Made by a program: the position numbers and the translations under genes. From a virus: DNA of 26,070 nucleotides. The notes under the pieces were generated by a model. The model saw only the letters and a list, made by a program, of their open reading frames with translations, did not search any database and was not told the origin of the DNA. This document shows positions 9,200-24,948 of this stretch, in pieces (the stretch's first letter is position 1; each line of letters starts with the position of its first letter). The stretch lies in IMG/VR virus record IMGVR_UViG_3300029448_000369, positions 1-26,070 of that record, one strand, 5' to 3'.

Positions 9200-9709
9200 C
9201 TACTCCTTTTCCTGAATCCCGAACAATCGACTCATCATAAAATAATCCGATTTGTCAGGACCAAAACCTTTTAATAATCCTTCTTCTAGAAAATAACATG
9301 ACTTTGCCCATTTGTATGCTAGGTAATTATACCGACTGACATTGATCTGCAATCTATGGATATTGAGTTTCTTAGCAGCGTAATTAAAAAATCGTAGACT
9401 TGCTTTGTGAAATTTAAATTTATGCTCACCTATTTGCAAACATGGAATCAGCCATGCTTCATACACGCCCTCCCAGATCGGTAGCAATCCAAAACAACAG
9501 ACAATCTTTTTACCGACCATGCCTGAGAATGATAATCCGTGCATAGGAAAAGTCCTGAGTCGTTCTGCATAATCATGAAAGCTGTCAAACAATTTTTTTT
9601 CTGCTTCTCTAAATTCCATAAACTTTAAATGTGTATAGTGAAACGGAATTACCTTAGATTCTTCTCCATCGATTCTCATTGCCTGATTAAGTTCTATGGT
9701 TGTAAACAT
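9200..9709 (-). CDS. GNAT-fold phage protein, T7 gp13-like
   Basis: This 169-residue protein shows the outline of a GNAT acetyltransferase fold. Early helices contain KLFDSFHDYAERLRT; central strands contain GMVGKKIVCCFGLLPIWEGVYEAWLIP (about 63-89); late helices and strands contain FNYAAKKLNIHRLQINV and NYLAYKWAKSCYFLEEGLL (about 108-145). The last matches the usual GNAT end (a helix, then a strand with a partner-residue pattern). T7 gp13 and related phage proteins have this fold and act in virion assembly. The acetyl-CoA loop is not clear, so enzyme activity is doubtful. The ATG overlaps the terL stop by one base (TAATG). In T7 the equivalent gene follows gp12; here it follows terL. Confidence 0.7.
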   Translation of the reverse strand: MFTTIELNQAMRIDGEESKVIPFHYTHLKFMEFREAEKKLFDSFHDYAERLRTFPMHGLSFSGMVGKKIVCCFGLLPIWEGVYEAWLIPCLQIGEHKFKFHKASLRFFNYAAKKLNIHRLQINVSRYNYLAYKWAKSCYFLEEGLLKGFGPDKSDYFMMSRLFGIQEKE

Positions 9710-11220
9710 TACGCTAACGGATCAAAGTCGATCTTAGCTACCATCGGTTGTAACTGTCTGGACTTTCCTCTGGTCATGGTACGATATTCAGAACCGAGTA
9801 AACAATACTGAGCTGCATCTCCGATATGCGAATGTTCGTTTTTATTTGGTGTATCCTTAAACCGCTCTTGCCCAGCACCGATTGCCACTCGTTTAAAATG
9901 ATAACCCCCCGCTAAAGATTTTCTTAAACGGACACATTTTCGGTCTATTCTGAATCCTGGTTTGCCATCAATCAATCGAGTCATCGGCATGGCGAGTGCT
10001 TCTCGTCTGGTTTTAAAATTATTAGTCGCACAGGGTTTAGCAAGGATGCCATGAGTTTTTAAATGATCAAACGAAGTATCTTCATTCAAAGTTGATCTTT
10101 GACTACCCGCTGGATCACCAAATACGACAATATCATTTTTAGGAAAAAATCGATTAATATCTTCTTTAAGTAAAATAGCAAAGCGTTCTAATCCCATATC
10201 GTATGTCACAATTTCATGAATCACCCTCCATACGCCTTTGTGATCTCTTTGAGCAAATACCGCAGCGGGTGTTAAACCAAAGTCTAATCCTATCTGCACA
10301 GGCACTCCGTCTAAAATTTCGCAATCTTCAGTCATAGATGAATCGTCAAACTCTGGCGTAACAGGACGACCTTCTTGAACATAAGTAAACTTGCCTTCTG
10401 CATAACAGCGAATCCAATCAAGATTCTTTCCGCCTAGTAATTGTTCGTAATATCCAACGGGAAGATTATTTAAATTTTCTGCTTTATCATTGGTCTGCCA
10501 CCATTTACCGCCACCAAAAACAAATCCCTGAGCTTCAGGCATTTCTTGGGGAACGTCTTGAGCTTCGAATACGCCTGGCGGTTGTCTAAAAAATTTCCAG
10601 GCAAACTTTCCTCTCGGTGGTTCTTTTTCCGATAACCGATAAATGTAGTGATCATCATCTGGAGGGTTGGTATCTAAAATAACACCACGCCAAGTTGGTC
10701 CTCCATCTTCTTTGCTTGGATATCTTCCGACTCTATGCGTTGTTCCGTCAATCACCGCTTTTGGTAATTCTCTACATTCATTAATCCAAGCACCTGTTAT
10801 TTCTAGTGATAATAATTTTCTGGTATCTTTAGGCTGATCGAGTGCCAGAAAGATTACTTCGCAATCTATTCCCGCAGCTCCTTCTCTGGAGGGTAGTTTG
10901 ATGTGGTGTGTAATGGGTGGCGAATGATGAACAGGACCATAGATATGTTCTGGAAATAACTCTAACCAAGTTTTTAGCGTAGTGGTTTTTAACATCGGAT
11001 AGGAGTTTCTTACAATCACAAATCTTGTTCGCTTGATTCCATCTCTTGGACTCGGTTTTTGTTGTATCGCTCTTTTAAAGATCTCAGCACAACAAGCATA
11101 GGATTTACCCGAACCAACAGGACCGATTAATCCTCTGACAAAAGATTTATCCTGTAAAAATTTCCAGATCGTAGGCGATTTGCTAAAGTCAAGTTTAAGT
11201 CCTGGTATGTTATTCTGCAT
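9709..11220 (-). CDS. Terminase large subunit
   Basis: This is the 503-residue packaging motor. Walker A is GPVGSGKS (33-40). The Walker B region ends in ITGAWINECREL with the catalytic Glu at 148. The nuclease domain has QIGLDFGLTP (Asp 313), IVVFGDPAGS (Asp 369) and HSHIGDAAQY (Asp 468), the three acidic positions of an RNase-H-like terminase nuclease. It is T7 gp19-like, slightly shorter than T7's 586. The ATG directly follows the TAG of the nested frame (TAG|ATG), has AGGAG eight bases upstream, and overlaps the methyltransferase end by 11 bases. It works with the portal at 6874-8451 and the small subunit at 12213-12620. Confidence 0.95.
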   Translation of the reverse strand: MQNNIPGLKLDFSKSPTIWKFLQDKSFVRGLIGPVGSGKSYACCAEIFKRAIQQKPSPRDGIKRTRFVIVRNSYPMLKTTTLKTWLELFPEHIYGPVHHSPPITHHIKLPSREGAAGIDCEVIFLALDQPKDTRKLLSLEITGAWINECRELPKAVIDGTTHRVGRYPSKEDGGPTWRGVILDTNPPDDDHYIYRLSEKEPPRGKFAWKFFRQPPGVFEAQDVPQEMPEAQGFVFGGGKWWQTNDKAENLNNLPVGYYEQLLGGKNLDWIRCYAEGKFTYVQEGRPVTPEFDDSSMTEDCEILDGVPVQIGLDFGLTPAAVFAQRDHKGVWRVIHEIVTYDMGLERFAILLKEDINRFFPKNDIVVFGDPAGSQRSTLNEDTSFDHLKTHGILAKPCATNNFKTRREALAMPMTRLIDGKPGFRIDRKCVRLRKSLAGGYHFKRVAIGAGQERFKDTPNKNEHSHIGDAAQYCLLGSEYRTMTRGKSRQLQPMVAKIDFDPLA

Positions 11221-12229
11221 CTATGATACTCCTGAAGATTTGTTCTGCGATTTGTGGCACGATTGAGTTTCCGAGTGATTTGATTCTGTTGGTTCTATCT
11301 GAGTGTAATTCATAGGATACCCCATTAGGAACTCCACAAAGTTCGGATTGAGTCTGCCACCAGCTACGGCATTCAGCGGTTTTGTTTTTCTTTTCATCTG
11401 ACTTGGGTTGCCACTGTTTTTTGAATCTTGAACTGTCGGAGTCGGATACATTCCTTCGGTTTGCAACTTGTTCACCACATCGTTCAGTTTCGCCCCAAAC
11501 TTTGTCTTTGTGTTCTTGCGAGTGACTGTCCATCCACTCTTGTTTTGACTCACTGAGTCTGGTGGCGCTACCACATCCATCTGACAACTCGCCGATGGTG
11601 TTGGATACATCTTGACTGTGTCGGCTAGGTTTAGACTGTGACTGTCCTTGCCGTCCTTGGTCATCCGTCTTGTTCCTTTGTCGTTCAGTACCATGTTCGG
11701 ATGTTCTATCTCTTGAGTCGTTGGTGTTGGATACATTTTCTCCGATGATCCAGATTCTTTTTCTTTGGTGCCAAGCACCGATGCCTGAAGCTGGAATAAC
11801 AAGACATTGGACTTGGAAACCCTCTTTTTCCAAATCTTCTTGTATCTGTCGCAAGATTGTACCATTGGAGATGTTAACAATGCCGTCAACATTTTCTCCA
11901 ATAAACCATTTCGGTTTGCACTCGGCAACAACTCTAATAGTTTCATCCCACAAGTATCTGTCGTCATCTTTGCCTTTTCTTTTTCCAGCAACAGAGAAAG
12001 GTTGGCAGGGAAATCCTCCTGAAATAATGGTAGCTGAACCAAAGTCTTTTCCATTAACTTTCCTTATATCGTCTATGATCGGAACAACGCTCCAATGCTT
12101 TTTTAAAATTTTTTGACAAAATTCATCCTTCTCTACAAACCCTATTGTTTCAATTCCATTTCGTTTAGCACCTAAACTAAAACCTCCTATACCTGAAAAC
12201 AGATCTAATAATTTATGATTTGTCCTCAC
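11210..12229 (-). CDS. DNA (cytosine-5) methyltransferase
   Basis: This 339-residue enzyme has the main motifs of C5 methyltransferases: I, LLDLFSGIGGFSLG (7-20, SAM binding); IV, GGFPCQPFSVAGKRKG (71-86, catalytic Cys 75); VI, ENV (112-114); VIII, HQRKRIWIIG (154-163); X, LGNSIVPQIAEQI (319-331). It would put a 5-methyl group on cytosine in phage DNA, probably to avoid host restriction or to mark the genome. The target-recognition region (about 165-300) is unusually polar and repetitive, with VSNTN, VSNTI and VSDSD, because the same bases encode the nested frame. It starts with GTG at 12229, overlaps the small terminase end by 17 bases and terL by 11. Confidence 0.93.
   Translation of the reverse strand: MRTNHKLLDLFSGIGGFSLGAKRNGIETIGFVEKDEFCQKILKKHWSVVPIIDDIRKVNGKDFGSATIISGGFPCQPFSVAGKRKGKDDDRYLWDETIRVVAECKPKWFIGENVDGIVNISNGTILRQIQEDLEKEGFQVQCLVIPASGIGAWHQRKRIWIIGENVSNTNDSRDRTSEHGTERQRNKTDDQGRQGQSQSKPSRHSQDVSNTIGELSDGCGSATRLSESKQEWMDSHSQEHKDKVWGETERCGEQVANRRNVSDSDSSRFKKQWQPKSDEKKNKTAECRSWWQTQSELCGVPNGVSYELHSDRTNRIKSLGNSIVPQIAEQIFRSIIDAE
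11221..12054 (-). CDS. Nested 277-residue protein inside the methyltransferase gene (YPTP-repeat family)
   Basis: This frame lies entirely within the methyltransferase gene, same strand, different frame. AAGGA lies six bases before its ATG, and its TAG touches the terL ATG. The protein begins MEKTLVQLPLFQEDFPANLS. It has a helical part (GLLEKMLTALLTS, 50-62), then VLLFQLQASVLGTKEKESG, three MYPTP repeats (107, 149, 202), and a C-terminal LNPNFVEFLMGYPMNYTQIEP (235-255). From memory, many phage proteins share the FPAN...ESG...PTP...LNP.WVEWLMGFP pattern, also beside or overlapping cytosine methyltransferases. The last block resembles C5 motif IX (LT..E...LQGFP). Three repeats are conserved by synonymous change in this frame. 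Function unknown; a partner or alternative C-terminus of the methyltransferase is possible. Confidence 0.7.
   Translation of the reverse strand: MEKTLVQLPLFQEDFPANLSLLLEKEKAKMTTDTCGMKLLELLPSANRNGLLEKMLTALLTSPMVQSCDRYKKIWKKRVSKSNVLLFQLQASVLGTKEKESGSSEKMYPTPTTQEIEHPNMVLNDKGTRRMTKDGKDSHSLNLADTVKMYPTPSASCQMDVVAPPDSVSQNKSGWTVTRKNTKTKFGAKLNDVVNKLQTEGMYPTPTVQDSKNSGNPSQMKRKTKPLNAVAGGRLNPNFVEFLMGYPMNYTQIEPTESNHSETQSCHKSQNKSSGVS
11435..11736 (-). repeat. Three in-frame 17-base repeats encoding MYPTP / VS(N/D)
   Basis: Copies at 11720-11736, 11594-11610 and 11435-11451 read ATGTATCCAACACCAAC, ATGTATCCAACACCATC and ATGTATCCGACTCCGAC. They are spaced 42 and 53 codons apart, so all are in the same register. 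In the nested frame each reads Met-Tyr-Pro-Thr-Pro; in the methyltransferase frame they read VSNTN, VSNTI and VSDSD. Confidence 0.85.
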
Positions 12230-12620
12230 TCGGCCCTACCATCTTAATATCAATCACCGCCGGTTTATCCGCATCCTGTTCTGCATCCAGCAACCCAGCC
12301 GACTTTGCTAACATCTGCAACACTCTCACCTTATCAATCATCTCAATATCCAACGTGCCATCCTGTAAAATACGAATCCTCTTAATCGCACCCAACGCTG
12401 ATTTCGGAATATCCTTAATATCCCTGACCTCAGTAATCGTCTTGCCTTCCTCATCCGTACTCCAGGACACAATGTCCGTAATATTCGCAGTTCCTAAATT
12501 AATCAGCTCCTGTGCCAAGGTTTCTCGATTTTGATAAATAACCTCACTTCCTTTGATCCTTCGTTTGATCTGACGAACCGAAGCAAAATTTTTAAGGTTG
12601 GGTAAAACTCTTTTAACCAT
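12213..12620 (-). CDS. Terminase small subunit (Terminase_2-like)
   Basis: This 135-residue protein has the late part of small terminases: TANITDIVSWSTDEEGKTI, then IPKSALGAIKRIRI and MIDKVRVLQMLAKSAGLLD (about 95-113). The pattern 'itDiv.w....p..a..aI..i......ik..dK..aL..La...Gl' is typical of this family. The N-terminus is short and basic. Just before the methyltransferase and terL, it would bind phage DNA ends and pass them to TerL. The ATG directly follows the TAG of the upstream gene (TAG|ATG), with AAGGA 12 bases before it. Confidence 0.72.
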   Translation of the reverse strand: MVKRVLPNLKNFASVRQIKRRIKGSEVIYQNRETLAQELINLGTANITDIVSWSTDEEGKTITEVRDIKDIPKSALGAIKRIRILQDGTLDIEMIDKVRVLQMLAKSAGLLDAEQDADKPAVIDIKMVGPSEDKS

Positions 12621-15832: not shown

Positions 15833-16117
15833 ATGAAAATAGAACAAAAATCAGAGGATGTTGTTTATATTACAATCAAGGGTTGGGTTTATTATATCGA
15901 TGATTCAACTGACGAACAAATAATTCAAAAGTGGAAAAATAAATATTCACAAAAAGATTATGAGATGTTTAAAGAATCACTACAACTTTCTATTACTGCA
16001 CCAAACGAAAAACAAAGTAAACAATGTTTAGAAATTGCAAATGAAATGTCCGACCTTTTTCCAAAAAATATTATAGAAAAAGCAAAAAAAGAAGTTGAGT
16101 TTTATATTAATAACTAA
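15833..16117 (+). CDS. Unknown small protein at start of rightward operon
   Basis: This 94-residue, charged protein starts MKIEQKSEDVVYITIKGWVYY; DDSTDEQIIQKWKNKYSQKDYEMF follows, then a helical Glu/Lys-rich end. No domain or membrane helix is recognised. AAAGGA lies before the ATG. It is the first rightward gene, 29 bases before the recombinase. A role in controlling or aiding the recombinase is possible by position only. Confidence 0.65.
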   Translation: MKIEQKSEDVVYITIKGWVYYIDDSTDEQIIQKWKNKYSQKDYEMFKESLQLSITAPNEKQSKQCLEIANEMSDLFPKNIIEKAKKEVEFYINN

Positions 16118-16145
16118 TTATCGAAAGATAAAGAAGGGAAACATA

Positions 16146-16964
16146 ATGAAAACATTATTTAAAAACACAGAAGGCAAGGAGCATACAGGCGAGTATGTTC
16201 TTTATGGCAGAGTGTCTACGGAGGATCAAGACTGTATGCGACAGATTCATGCAGCAAAAAAATATTTAAATGGAGGAGACTACAAACTTACAATCTTTAC
16301 AGAAAAGCCCATGTCAGGTGCAACCGATCCGTATAAAAGAGAAGAGCTGATGAAGGCCGTTGAGTATTGTGTTGAACATAAAGCAACACTTGTCTTTGCA
16401 GATCTGGAGCGATTATGTCGTAAGATGTGGATGACTCTTCGATTTCTTGATGAAGTGATAGAACAAAATAAAATTAACTTTATTGTCTGCAATGATCCCA
16501 CCATCTCAGAAAATCCTATGCGACTTCAGATGAAGGCAATGTTTTCAGAGTGGGAACGCCAAGAAATTTCTAGGCGAACCAAAGAAACACTTGGTGCATA
16601 CCAGGAACAAATCAAAGAGAAGGGATACTTCACCTCTAAAGATAAAGTTGTTAACAATAAAGTGATCAAAGGTCGCAAGATTAAAAAGCTAGGGGTTCAT
16701 AGTAAGATGGACAAAGCCAGGCAAAAGTCAGGGGAGGTTGCGAGTGCTGAAGCGGATCGTTTTGCTAAAAGTATTTACCTTTATCTGAACGATGCCTATA
16801 CCCATTGTTCTTCTTTAAGTGAGATGAGCGAATTTTTAAATGAGCGTAAAGTTCCCACACCCGCACAACTACGAGAGAAACCAAACAAAAATGCAAAGTG
16901 GTATCCATCGAGCGTAAAAAATATGTTAACACGCTTAAAGATAGGAGAGTATAATGATAACTAA
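16146..16964 (+). CDS. Serine recombinase (short integrase/resolvase family)
   Basis: The 272-residue product has the resolvase domain. YGRVSTEDQ (20-28) carries the catalytic Ser 24 and its Arg 22. The ADLERLCRK segment matches the active-site arginine motif, and an E-helix (FSEWERQEISRRTKETL) follows. The C-terminal part has EADRFAKSIYLYLNDA, LSEMSEFLNERKVPTPAQ and WYPSSVKNMLTRL, like the recombinase domain that reads DNA sites. It is shorter than large serine integrases but longer than Tn3 resolvases. The start at 16146 fits GAAGGG eight bases upstream. It probably integrates and excises the phage; inversion or dimer resolution are alternatives. It overlaps the next gene by 11 bases. Confidence 0.88.
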   Translation: MKTLFKNTEGKEHTGEYVLYGRVSTEDQDCMRQIHAAKKYLNGGDYKLTIFTEKPMSGATDPYKREELMKAVEYCVEHKATLVFADLERLCRKMWMTLRFLDEVIEQNKINFIVCNDPTISENPMRLQMKAMFSEWERQEISRRTKETLGAYQEQIKEKGYFTSKDKVVNNKVIKGRKIKKLGVHSKMDKARQKSGEVASAEADRFAKSIYLYLNDAYTHCSSLSEMSEFLNERKVPTPAQLREKPNKNAKWYPSSVKNMLTRLKIGEYNDN

Positions 16965-23727: not shown

Positions 23728-24948
23728 TTAAAATCCTAATACCATTGCTTTGCCCGTTGTTGTAGTAAAGCTGTTCATATCATCTTCCACAGCAACAGTT
23801 AAAGTATCGGTTGCAGAAGCCGTTGTGCTTATACCATTGCCTGCTGCAACAGTTAAAGTATTCCCATTTGTAATCGTTTGGTTAGATCCAGATGTTCCAG
23901 CAACAGTAAAATTTTCCATACTACCTGAGCCATCAGATCCGTCAGCACCAGAATAAGCAAAATGTACACTTAATCCATCTGAATTAGAAAATGTTCCGGA
24001 ACTTGTTAAATGTGTAACAGCTACTTTAGTGTAACCGCTTGCATCTGTAATTGCTCCTGTTACCTTAAAAGTTGCGTAAGTTGCTGGTGTTGATTCTTTA
24101 GTTATAGTAATGACTCCTCTAGCTACTGCATTAGTTACATCATCCCAAGATTGCACAAAAGTTGTAATGTTTGCTCCAGCATCGTCTGCATCATCTACAA
24201 ATAAAACTGACACGCTTGATAATGTTCCGTTGTTAAAAGCAATCTTACCTGCACCTGGATCAGCATCACTTGTTGAATTATTAAACGTCATAGACAATTG
24301 TGGATTAGCACCTAACGAGCCAGTTGCCCCAGTCGCTCCAGTTGGAATACCGAGTGCAAATGTTAAATCATCGCCTGATAAAGTAGCAGATCCTGTGGCT
24401 GATCCTCCAGCCGAAACTGTTGAAGTATTAACTGTAACGCTGTCAATTCCACGTTTTAAAAGCGTTAAAGCAGTACCATTACTATCATAGCCAATTACTT
24501 TATTTGCATTGCTTGAGCTTGTATCATTGTACGGAACAATCAAGCTTGGTGGTGTTGATCCTGTTACAAATTCTGGTAGCTGTAAGGTGCGATCTATTTT
24601 CTCTTCAAATTGCTGTAACACCATGATCGTATTGTCAAAATCTGTTTCTAATGATGCAGCCGTAAAAGACGCTCCTGTTGAATATGCAGATTCTCTCGAT
24701 AAAGGTTTGTTAGCAAGAATGGTAAGTTTCTGTCCTGTGGTCGGAGCTGAAGCATAGTTAACAGTTCCTGTTCCGTTGGTGGCAATTGTTACAGTATAAT
24801 GAGTTGATAAGGATTGAGTCGTTTCACCAAGTATAACTTTTAGTTCAGAATCCGCATTGATCTGAAACGAAAAGGCAAAACTAGTTGTTGAGCCATTGGT
24901 CGTATACTGGACTCTTCTATTGGTATCGTTAATATCAAATGTAGCCAT
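23728..24948 (-). CDS. Tail fibre protein with T7 gp17-type N-terminus
   Basis: This 406-residue protein begins MATFDINDTNRRVQYTTNGS and has FAFSFQINADSELKVIL, GQKLTILANKPLSRES, then DFDNTIMVLQQFEEKIDRTLQLPE (about 107-130), the T7 gp17 N-terminal domain that binds the tail. A short collagen-like IPTGATGATGSLG follows (about 199-211), then beta-rich repeats. It is shorter than T7 gp17 (553). AAGGA lies six bases before the ATG. It probably reads the host surface. Confidence 0.88.
   Translation of the reverse strand: MATFDINDTNRRVQYTTNGSTTSFAFSFQINADSELKVILGETTQSLSTHYTVTIATNGTGTVNYASAPTTGQKLTILANKPLSRESAYSTGASFTAASLETDFDNTIMVLQQFEEKIDRTLQLPEFVTGSTPPSLIVPYNDTSSSNANKVIGYDSNGTALTLLKRGIDSVTVNTSTVSAGGSATGSATLSGDDLTFALGIPTGATGATGSLGANPQLSMTFNNSTSDADPGAGKIAFNNGTLSSVSVLFVDDADDAGANITTFVQSWDDVTNAVARGVITITKESTPATYATFKVTGAITDASGYTKVAVTHLTSSGTFSNSDGLSVHFAYSGADGSDGSGSMENFTVAGTSGSNQTITNGNTLTVAAGNGISTTASATDTLTVAVEDDMNSFTTTTGKAMVLGF

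Follow-up and report, generated by a model that had tools for sequence, protein, structure and literature searches.

M.EcoHK31I (YGGCCR) carries motifs I to VIII and motif X in its larger chain and motif IX in its smaller one, and its predicted target-recognition domain has been placed in the larger chain (PMC3404938). M.AquI (CYCGRG) also consists of two chains, split in the variable region (PMC3404938). The multispecific C5-methyltransferases of the Bacillus phages SPbeta, phi3T, rho11, and H2 have several target-recognition domains in tandem between motifs VIII and IX and protect against several restriction systems (PMC12707154; PMC8936443).

The locus described here lies in a viral window of 26,070 nucleotides (the whole stretch of DNA that we analyzed; IMG/VR record IMGVR_UViG_3300029448_000369, positions 1 to 26,070), in which the gene for a C5-cytosine methyltransferase chain, alpha, contains the gene for a second chain, beta (Table 1). 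Compared by description rather than by sequence, the two chains have the same motif division as M.EcoHK31I: motif IX stands alone in the second chain, motifs I to VIII and X are in the first, and the second chain is encoded in another frame of the first gene. In M.EcoHK31I, too, the small-chain gene is nested, in another frame, within the gene for the large chain; M.EcoHK31I was not reached by a plasmid search. Our locus differs from it in that the nested chain holds the recognition region, which takes the form of a cassette array. Three variant loci (L184, L188, and L239) resemble M.AquI in that their second chain carries both motif IX and motif X, whereas the window has motif X back in alpha, with beta nested. 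Between motifs VIII and IX, the locus has an array of cassettes of about 40 residues that match the TL motif in part and that, if they are recognition domains, would work like those of the Bacillus phage enzymes; those enzymes hold array and catalytic motifs in a single polypeptide, whereas here the array is in the nested, dual-coded beta and the catalytic core in alpha. The entries for PHROG_1008 and PHROG_363, which match beta and alpha, respectively, are silent on any partner-chain relation, and the literature search, with most subscription papers outside its reach, found no description of a nested cassette-array arrangement in phages.

Motifs divided between two chains

Alpha starts with a GTG codon inside the 3' end of terS. 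It matches PF00145 (E 5e-56), PHROG_363, also named DNA methyltransferase, and M.HhaI, the last both in a sequence search and in a fold search with the predicted model. Beta matches PHROG_1008 ('DNA methyltransferase', E 1e-28), and searches of Pfam families and PDB profiles with it gave no match. As the sequence-only reading of this DNA had described, the 277-codon frame lies wholly within the methyltransferase gene on the same strand, in the +1 register; the AAGGA six bases 5' of its ATG and the TAG abutting the terL ATG, which follows immediately, are both seen in the sequence. A 148-aa frame with a TTG start runs antisense to the pair (11670-12116, plus strand) and is probably a by-product of constrained codons.

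Table 1. Features of the alpha/beta locus and its neighbors, in window positions
Feature	Positions	Strand	Details
terL, terminase large subunit, downstream neighbor	9709..11220	minus	PHROG_2, E 3e-27
alpha, C5-cytosine methyltransferase chain	11210..12229	minus	339 aa; motifs I-VIII and X
beta, nested chain	11221..12054	minus	277 aa, ATG..TAG; N-terminal region, putative recognition cassettes, motif IX
alpha motif X (NRIKSLGNSIVPQIAEQI)	11237..11290	minus	sequence motif; pLDDT up to 95
beta motif IX (GRLNPNFVEFLMGYP)	11314..11358	minus	sequence motif
alpha passenger linker, residues ~185-304	11317..11677	minus	alpha reading of beta cassettes and motif IX
beta cassette 3 (MYPTPTVQDSKNSG...)	11353..11451	minus	alpha reading VSDSDSSRFKK...
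beta cassette 2 (MYPTPSASCQMDVV...)	11452..11610	minus	alpha reading VSNTIGELSDG...
beta cassette 1 (MYPTPTTQEIEHPN...)	11611..11736	minus	alpha reading VSNTNDSRDRT...
beta N-terminal region	11737..12054	minus	overlaps alpha motifs IV-VIII; both constrained, alpha dominant
alpha catalytic core	11741..12208	minus	pLDDT mostly 80-98 (AlphaFold2)
alpha motif VIII	11741-11782	minus	sequence motif
alpha motif VI (ENV)	11879-11905	minus	sequence motif
alpha motif IV (PCQ)	11972-12025	minus	sequence motif
Shine-Dalgarno site AAGGA	12061..12065	minus	six bases before beta ATG; sequence ATATAAGGAAAGTTAATG
alpha motif I	12170-12208	minus	sequence motif
terS, terminase small subunit, upstream neighbor	12213..12620	minus	PF03592, E 5e-6

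The hallmark motifs of PF00145, namely I, IV (PCQ), VI (ENV), VIII, and X, are all in alpha. Motif IX, also expected of a PF00145 enzyme, is present in beta, and a search of alpha for a motif IX string found none. In 79 diverse betas, the L, P, L, M, and P of this motif (LNPNFVEFLMGYP) are invariant. The resemblance to motif IX that had been noted at the nested C-terminus is thus borne out, and motifs VIII and X, assigned earlier to the methyltransferase frame, are both located in alpha. In the AlphaFold2 model of alpha, residues 1-184 are mostly confident, residues 185-187 and 189-304 fall under a pLDDT of 50, and values climb to 95 at the motif X end; the linker of about 120 residues is predicted to be disordered. 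Beta modelled alone reached a pLDDT of 60.8, and Foldseek found no fold match for that model.

In the three variants mentioned above (L184:2486-3472, L188:2449-3525, and L239:2465-3574), the beta frame encodes motif IX and then motif X, alpha terminates once motif VIII is complete, and stops abound where the alpha frame crosses the cassettes. PHROG_363, the alpha family, matches the motif-X-bearing C-terminus of the L184 beta (E 8e-9), and a Pfam search of these three betas returned nothing. From these loci we conclude that the alpha frame is kept open in order to reach motif X and that, with high probability, the LMGYP of beta is a genuine motif IX. The three loci may be intermediate between two types of split, that of M.AquI and that of M.EcoHK31I. 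In a different set of loci (L046:789-2033, L096:1699-3066, and also L125, L139, and L151), beta extends about 400 nt beyond alpha. These extended betas have an extra C-terminal domain 3' of motif IX, M(F/Y)RTPTAMD... and then ...KIEHWFR...SYPSI.DW..., for which there was no Pfam match.

We consider it likely that the locus encodes one C5-cytosine methyltransferase in two chains, of which beta carries an exchangeable cassette array. That the two products could form one enzyme, or that the nested one could alter its DNA target, had been raised from the sequence, and the relatives point to a single enzyme of both products in which the DNA target is set by the nested one. In such an enzyme, alpha would give the AdoMet-binding and catalytic core (motifs I to VIII) and the returning motif X helix, and the roughly 120 residues between them would be a disordered linker, with its sequence dictated by beta. 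Beta, initiating within alpha at its own Shine-Dalgarno site, would give the target-recognition region and motif IX, that is, the small domain, and the two chains would assemble into a single enzyme. Since the array in the window has three cassettes, the enzyme would probably methylate more than one target sequence, and the phage DNA would be shielded from several host restriction enzymes.

The cassette array of beta

The variable region of beta is an array of units of about 40 residues, each with an opening (W/Y)PTP motif. The ESG...MYPTP repeats had been singled out as a nonrandom feature; it had been overlooked that they are exchangeable cassettes of many types. Cutting by regular expression and single-linkage clustering, a rough procedure that over-merged cluster 0 and split one type (clusters 13 and 16), gave 784 cassettes in 250 nonredundant betas (0-7 per beta, mostly 2-4), which fall into 143 clusters. 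The 245 betas compared gave 205 distinct cassette strings, and both orders were seen for 31 pairs of cassette types. The same type occurred twice in one beta in 5 cases, versus 19 +- 3.9 expected (cluster 0 excluded).

Exchange of cassettes is visible at the DNA level. Between the window and locus L001, the DNA of the beta N-terminal region is 97% identical and that of cassettes 2 and 3 is 96-97% identical; cassette 1 is of a different type. For the window's cassette 1, a counterpart with 96.8% nucleotide identity is found in L002 and L003, and the beta N-terminal region of L002 is only 81% identical to that of the window. The joins of the swaps are located at ATGTAYCCAACACCA, and the backbone of the window is common to L006, L010, L011, and L057, the arrays of which differ. 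Judged from these alignments, phages exchange cassettes at a conserved DNA seam; the swaps would occur by recombination at this seam (ATGTAYCCAACACC), with both frames held in phase. The phage in the window encodes ERF- and RecE-like recombination proteins, which could drive the swaps.

The place of the cassettes between motifs VIII and IX, their spacing to motif IX (10-50 residues from the last cassette in 94%), and a partial match to the TL motif of target-recognition domains (motif taken from PMC2413257; P[STCA]PT core in 37% of cassettes) all suggest that the cassettes are target-recognition domains. The (W/Y)PTP motif may correspond to the TL motif, and we infer one cassette per DNA target. 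A two-chain enzyme whose array forms a single composite recognition surface, or acts as a spacer varying for immune or structural reasons, would fit with the partial TL match and with the cassettes having no structural match in a PDB profile search or in Foldseek. We regard this alternative as unlikely, however, given the placement of the array between motifs VIII and IX with regular spacing to IX, the swapping of cassettes on a constant backbone, and the avoidance of same-type repeats, as multi-target arrays would show. If the cassettes are individual target-recognition domains, recombination at the seam, which swaps them with both frames in phase, would let phages change their methylation targets stepwise. 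We lean toward the broader view of a phage-spread, dual-coded enzyme family. Its specificity chain would be a combinatorial library of recognition cassettes concealed in the nested frame, and targets would be changed cassette by cassette via seam recombination.

Start of beta and selection on the two frames

Nesting recurs across homologues recruited with either frame. Among the matches listed, beta lay inside alpha in a single register in all 70 IMG/VR loci recruited with beta, at identities from 85% down to about 30%, and beta was present, again nested in that register, in 79/79 loci recruited with alpha instead. A distant profile reached at least 80 viral and at least 80 GTDB loci, and 157 of 160 of these (again among the matches listed) were nested in the same +1 register; since the searches were partly beta-recruited and some contigs are common to several sets, these counts are not estimates of prevalence. 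The GTDB loci come from Bacillota, Bacteroidota, Pseudomonadota, Synergistota, Verrucomicrobiota, and others, so we reject confinement of the arrangement to a single marine lineage. The nested frame is not riddled with stops, unlike the third frame, which served as a control and has 8.4 stops per 100 codons (77 loci); the beta frame just upstream of the beta start has 8.8. When codons were resampled among alpha synonyms, the beta N-terminal region stayed open in 1.4% of trials, and when they were resampled among beta synonyms, alpha was open across the variable region in 0.86%. The alpha frame through the variable region has 2 stops in 36,077 codons.

A Shine-Dalgarno match of at least 5 nt precedes the best beta start in 169/240 loci, versus about 26/240 controls, which agrees with the earlier view that a separate ribosome-binding site serves the nested gene, and the best start is ATG in 199/240 loci. 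Beta is also open and constrained for about 100 codons ahead of its first cassette (median 104). This constrained lead and the Shine-Dalgarno enrichment favor translation of beta from its own internal start over frameshifting. A programmed frameshift, which would fuse the N-terminal half of alpha to the recognition half of beta in a single polypeptide without separate initiation of beta, would suit the constant +1 register across loci, and a shift after motif VIII would give back the canonical motif order. Yet a shift at that point has no need for the constrained lead, the Shine-Dalgarno site, or the start of beta, and motif X would be regained only by a second shift, so we find this explanation very improbable and prefer internal initiation.

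Divergence at codon positions also distinguishes the two frames; it was taken from position counts over sequence pairs, which are not independent, without a likelihood model. In the part of alpha upstream of the overlap, divergence at codon positions 1/2/3 follows the usual pattern (0.18/0.14/0.40). In the beta N-terminal region, beta positions 1/2/3 (equal to alpha positions 2/3/1) give 0.08/0.22/0.17, and since the third position of alpha is slowed here, both frames appear constrained, with alpha dominating. The cassettes (0.20/0.15/0.43) and the motif IX stretch (0.15/0.18/0.50) show the pattern of an ordinary beta gene. Alpha is thus the dominant frame over motifs IV to VIII; dominance passes to beta in the variable region and motif IX and returns to alpha at motif X. 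Constraint is therefore not confined to the methyltransferase frame, and the suggestion that both frames are conserved over more than 800 bases holds as dual constraint in the N-terminal part, although that constraint is unequal and the variable region is under constraint in beta alone. The VSN(T)-rich stretch of alpha had been read as a conserved recognition region. This does not stand, since the stretch evolves as a beta-only gene and has pLDDT below 50, which together rule out a true recognition domain in alpha; by its codon-position pattern, it is a passive reading of the beta array, and alpha is a passenger through the cassettes and motif IX, yet is required to stay open.

Chance does yield long alternative frames in coding DNA, but an accidental open frame without a product has a negligible probability here and is essentially refuted by the codon-position result, beta being open and conserved in hundreds of homologues, with beta-type third-position divergence and its own start sites, and the alpha frame decaying where alpha need not reach motif X. 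The nested protein is, as first supposed, not random, and on these comparisons beta is a real nested gene.

Genomic setting and annotation

We compared the terS-terL interval (window counterpart 11210-12229) in L318, L322, L324, L326-L329, and L333. Near relatives with 88-94% identical terS and terL have no gene between the two or have other cargo. The terminase genes abut in L318, L327-L329, and L333; L324 has a 379-aa TET-associated glycosyltransferase in the slot (PF20691, E 6e-40), a DNA-modification gene, and L326 has an insert that matches that of L324 in length and start. With these contents, the slot has the look of a DNA-protection site at which genes are exchanged, in keeping with an anti-restriction role. 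Elsewhere in the window (16095-16964, plus, and 23728-24948, minus) are a resolvase/invertase-type serine recombinase (PF00239, E 7.5e-24) and a tail-fibre-like gene, and an invertible segment is possible.

Almost full-length nesting on the same strand is rare, and it recurs here in phages and many bacterial phyla, with a change of the constrained frame along the overlap. If our interpretation is correct, many genes named 'DNA cytosine methyltransferase' encode half an enzyme; such chains should be inactive when expressed alone, and the annotated chain does not reveal specificity. The swappable cassettes would then be a source of DNA-recognition modules, and phage escape from restriction would become directly testable.

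Annotation of just one of the two chains is common among deposited records. Both nested genes are annotated in Paenibacillus phage Tadhana (TADHANA_54 and 55), and a single chain is annotated in BcepC6B, Erwinia phage 59, and Vibrio phage Marilyn. Standard annotation can miss beta, as on the chromosome of E. coli ST131 (NZ_CP103557.1), where alpha is annotated (WP_077635079.1) and a 269-codon open beta is unannotated (L317:692-1501). That locus sits between ninE and ninF, and a related locus occurs in 68/5426 E. coli genomes. In a further record (L072; KT997847.1, ~16128-16964), the deposited annotation shows alpha as a short 5' fragment with beta after it, although both frames are open throughout.
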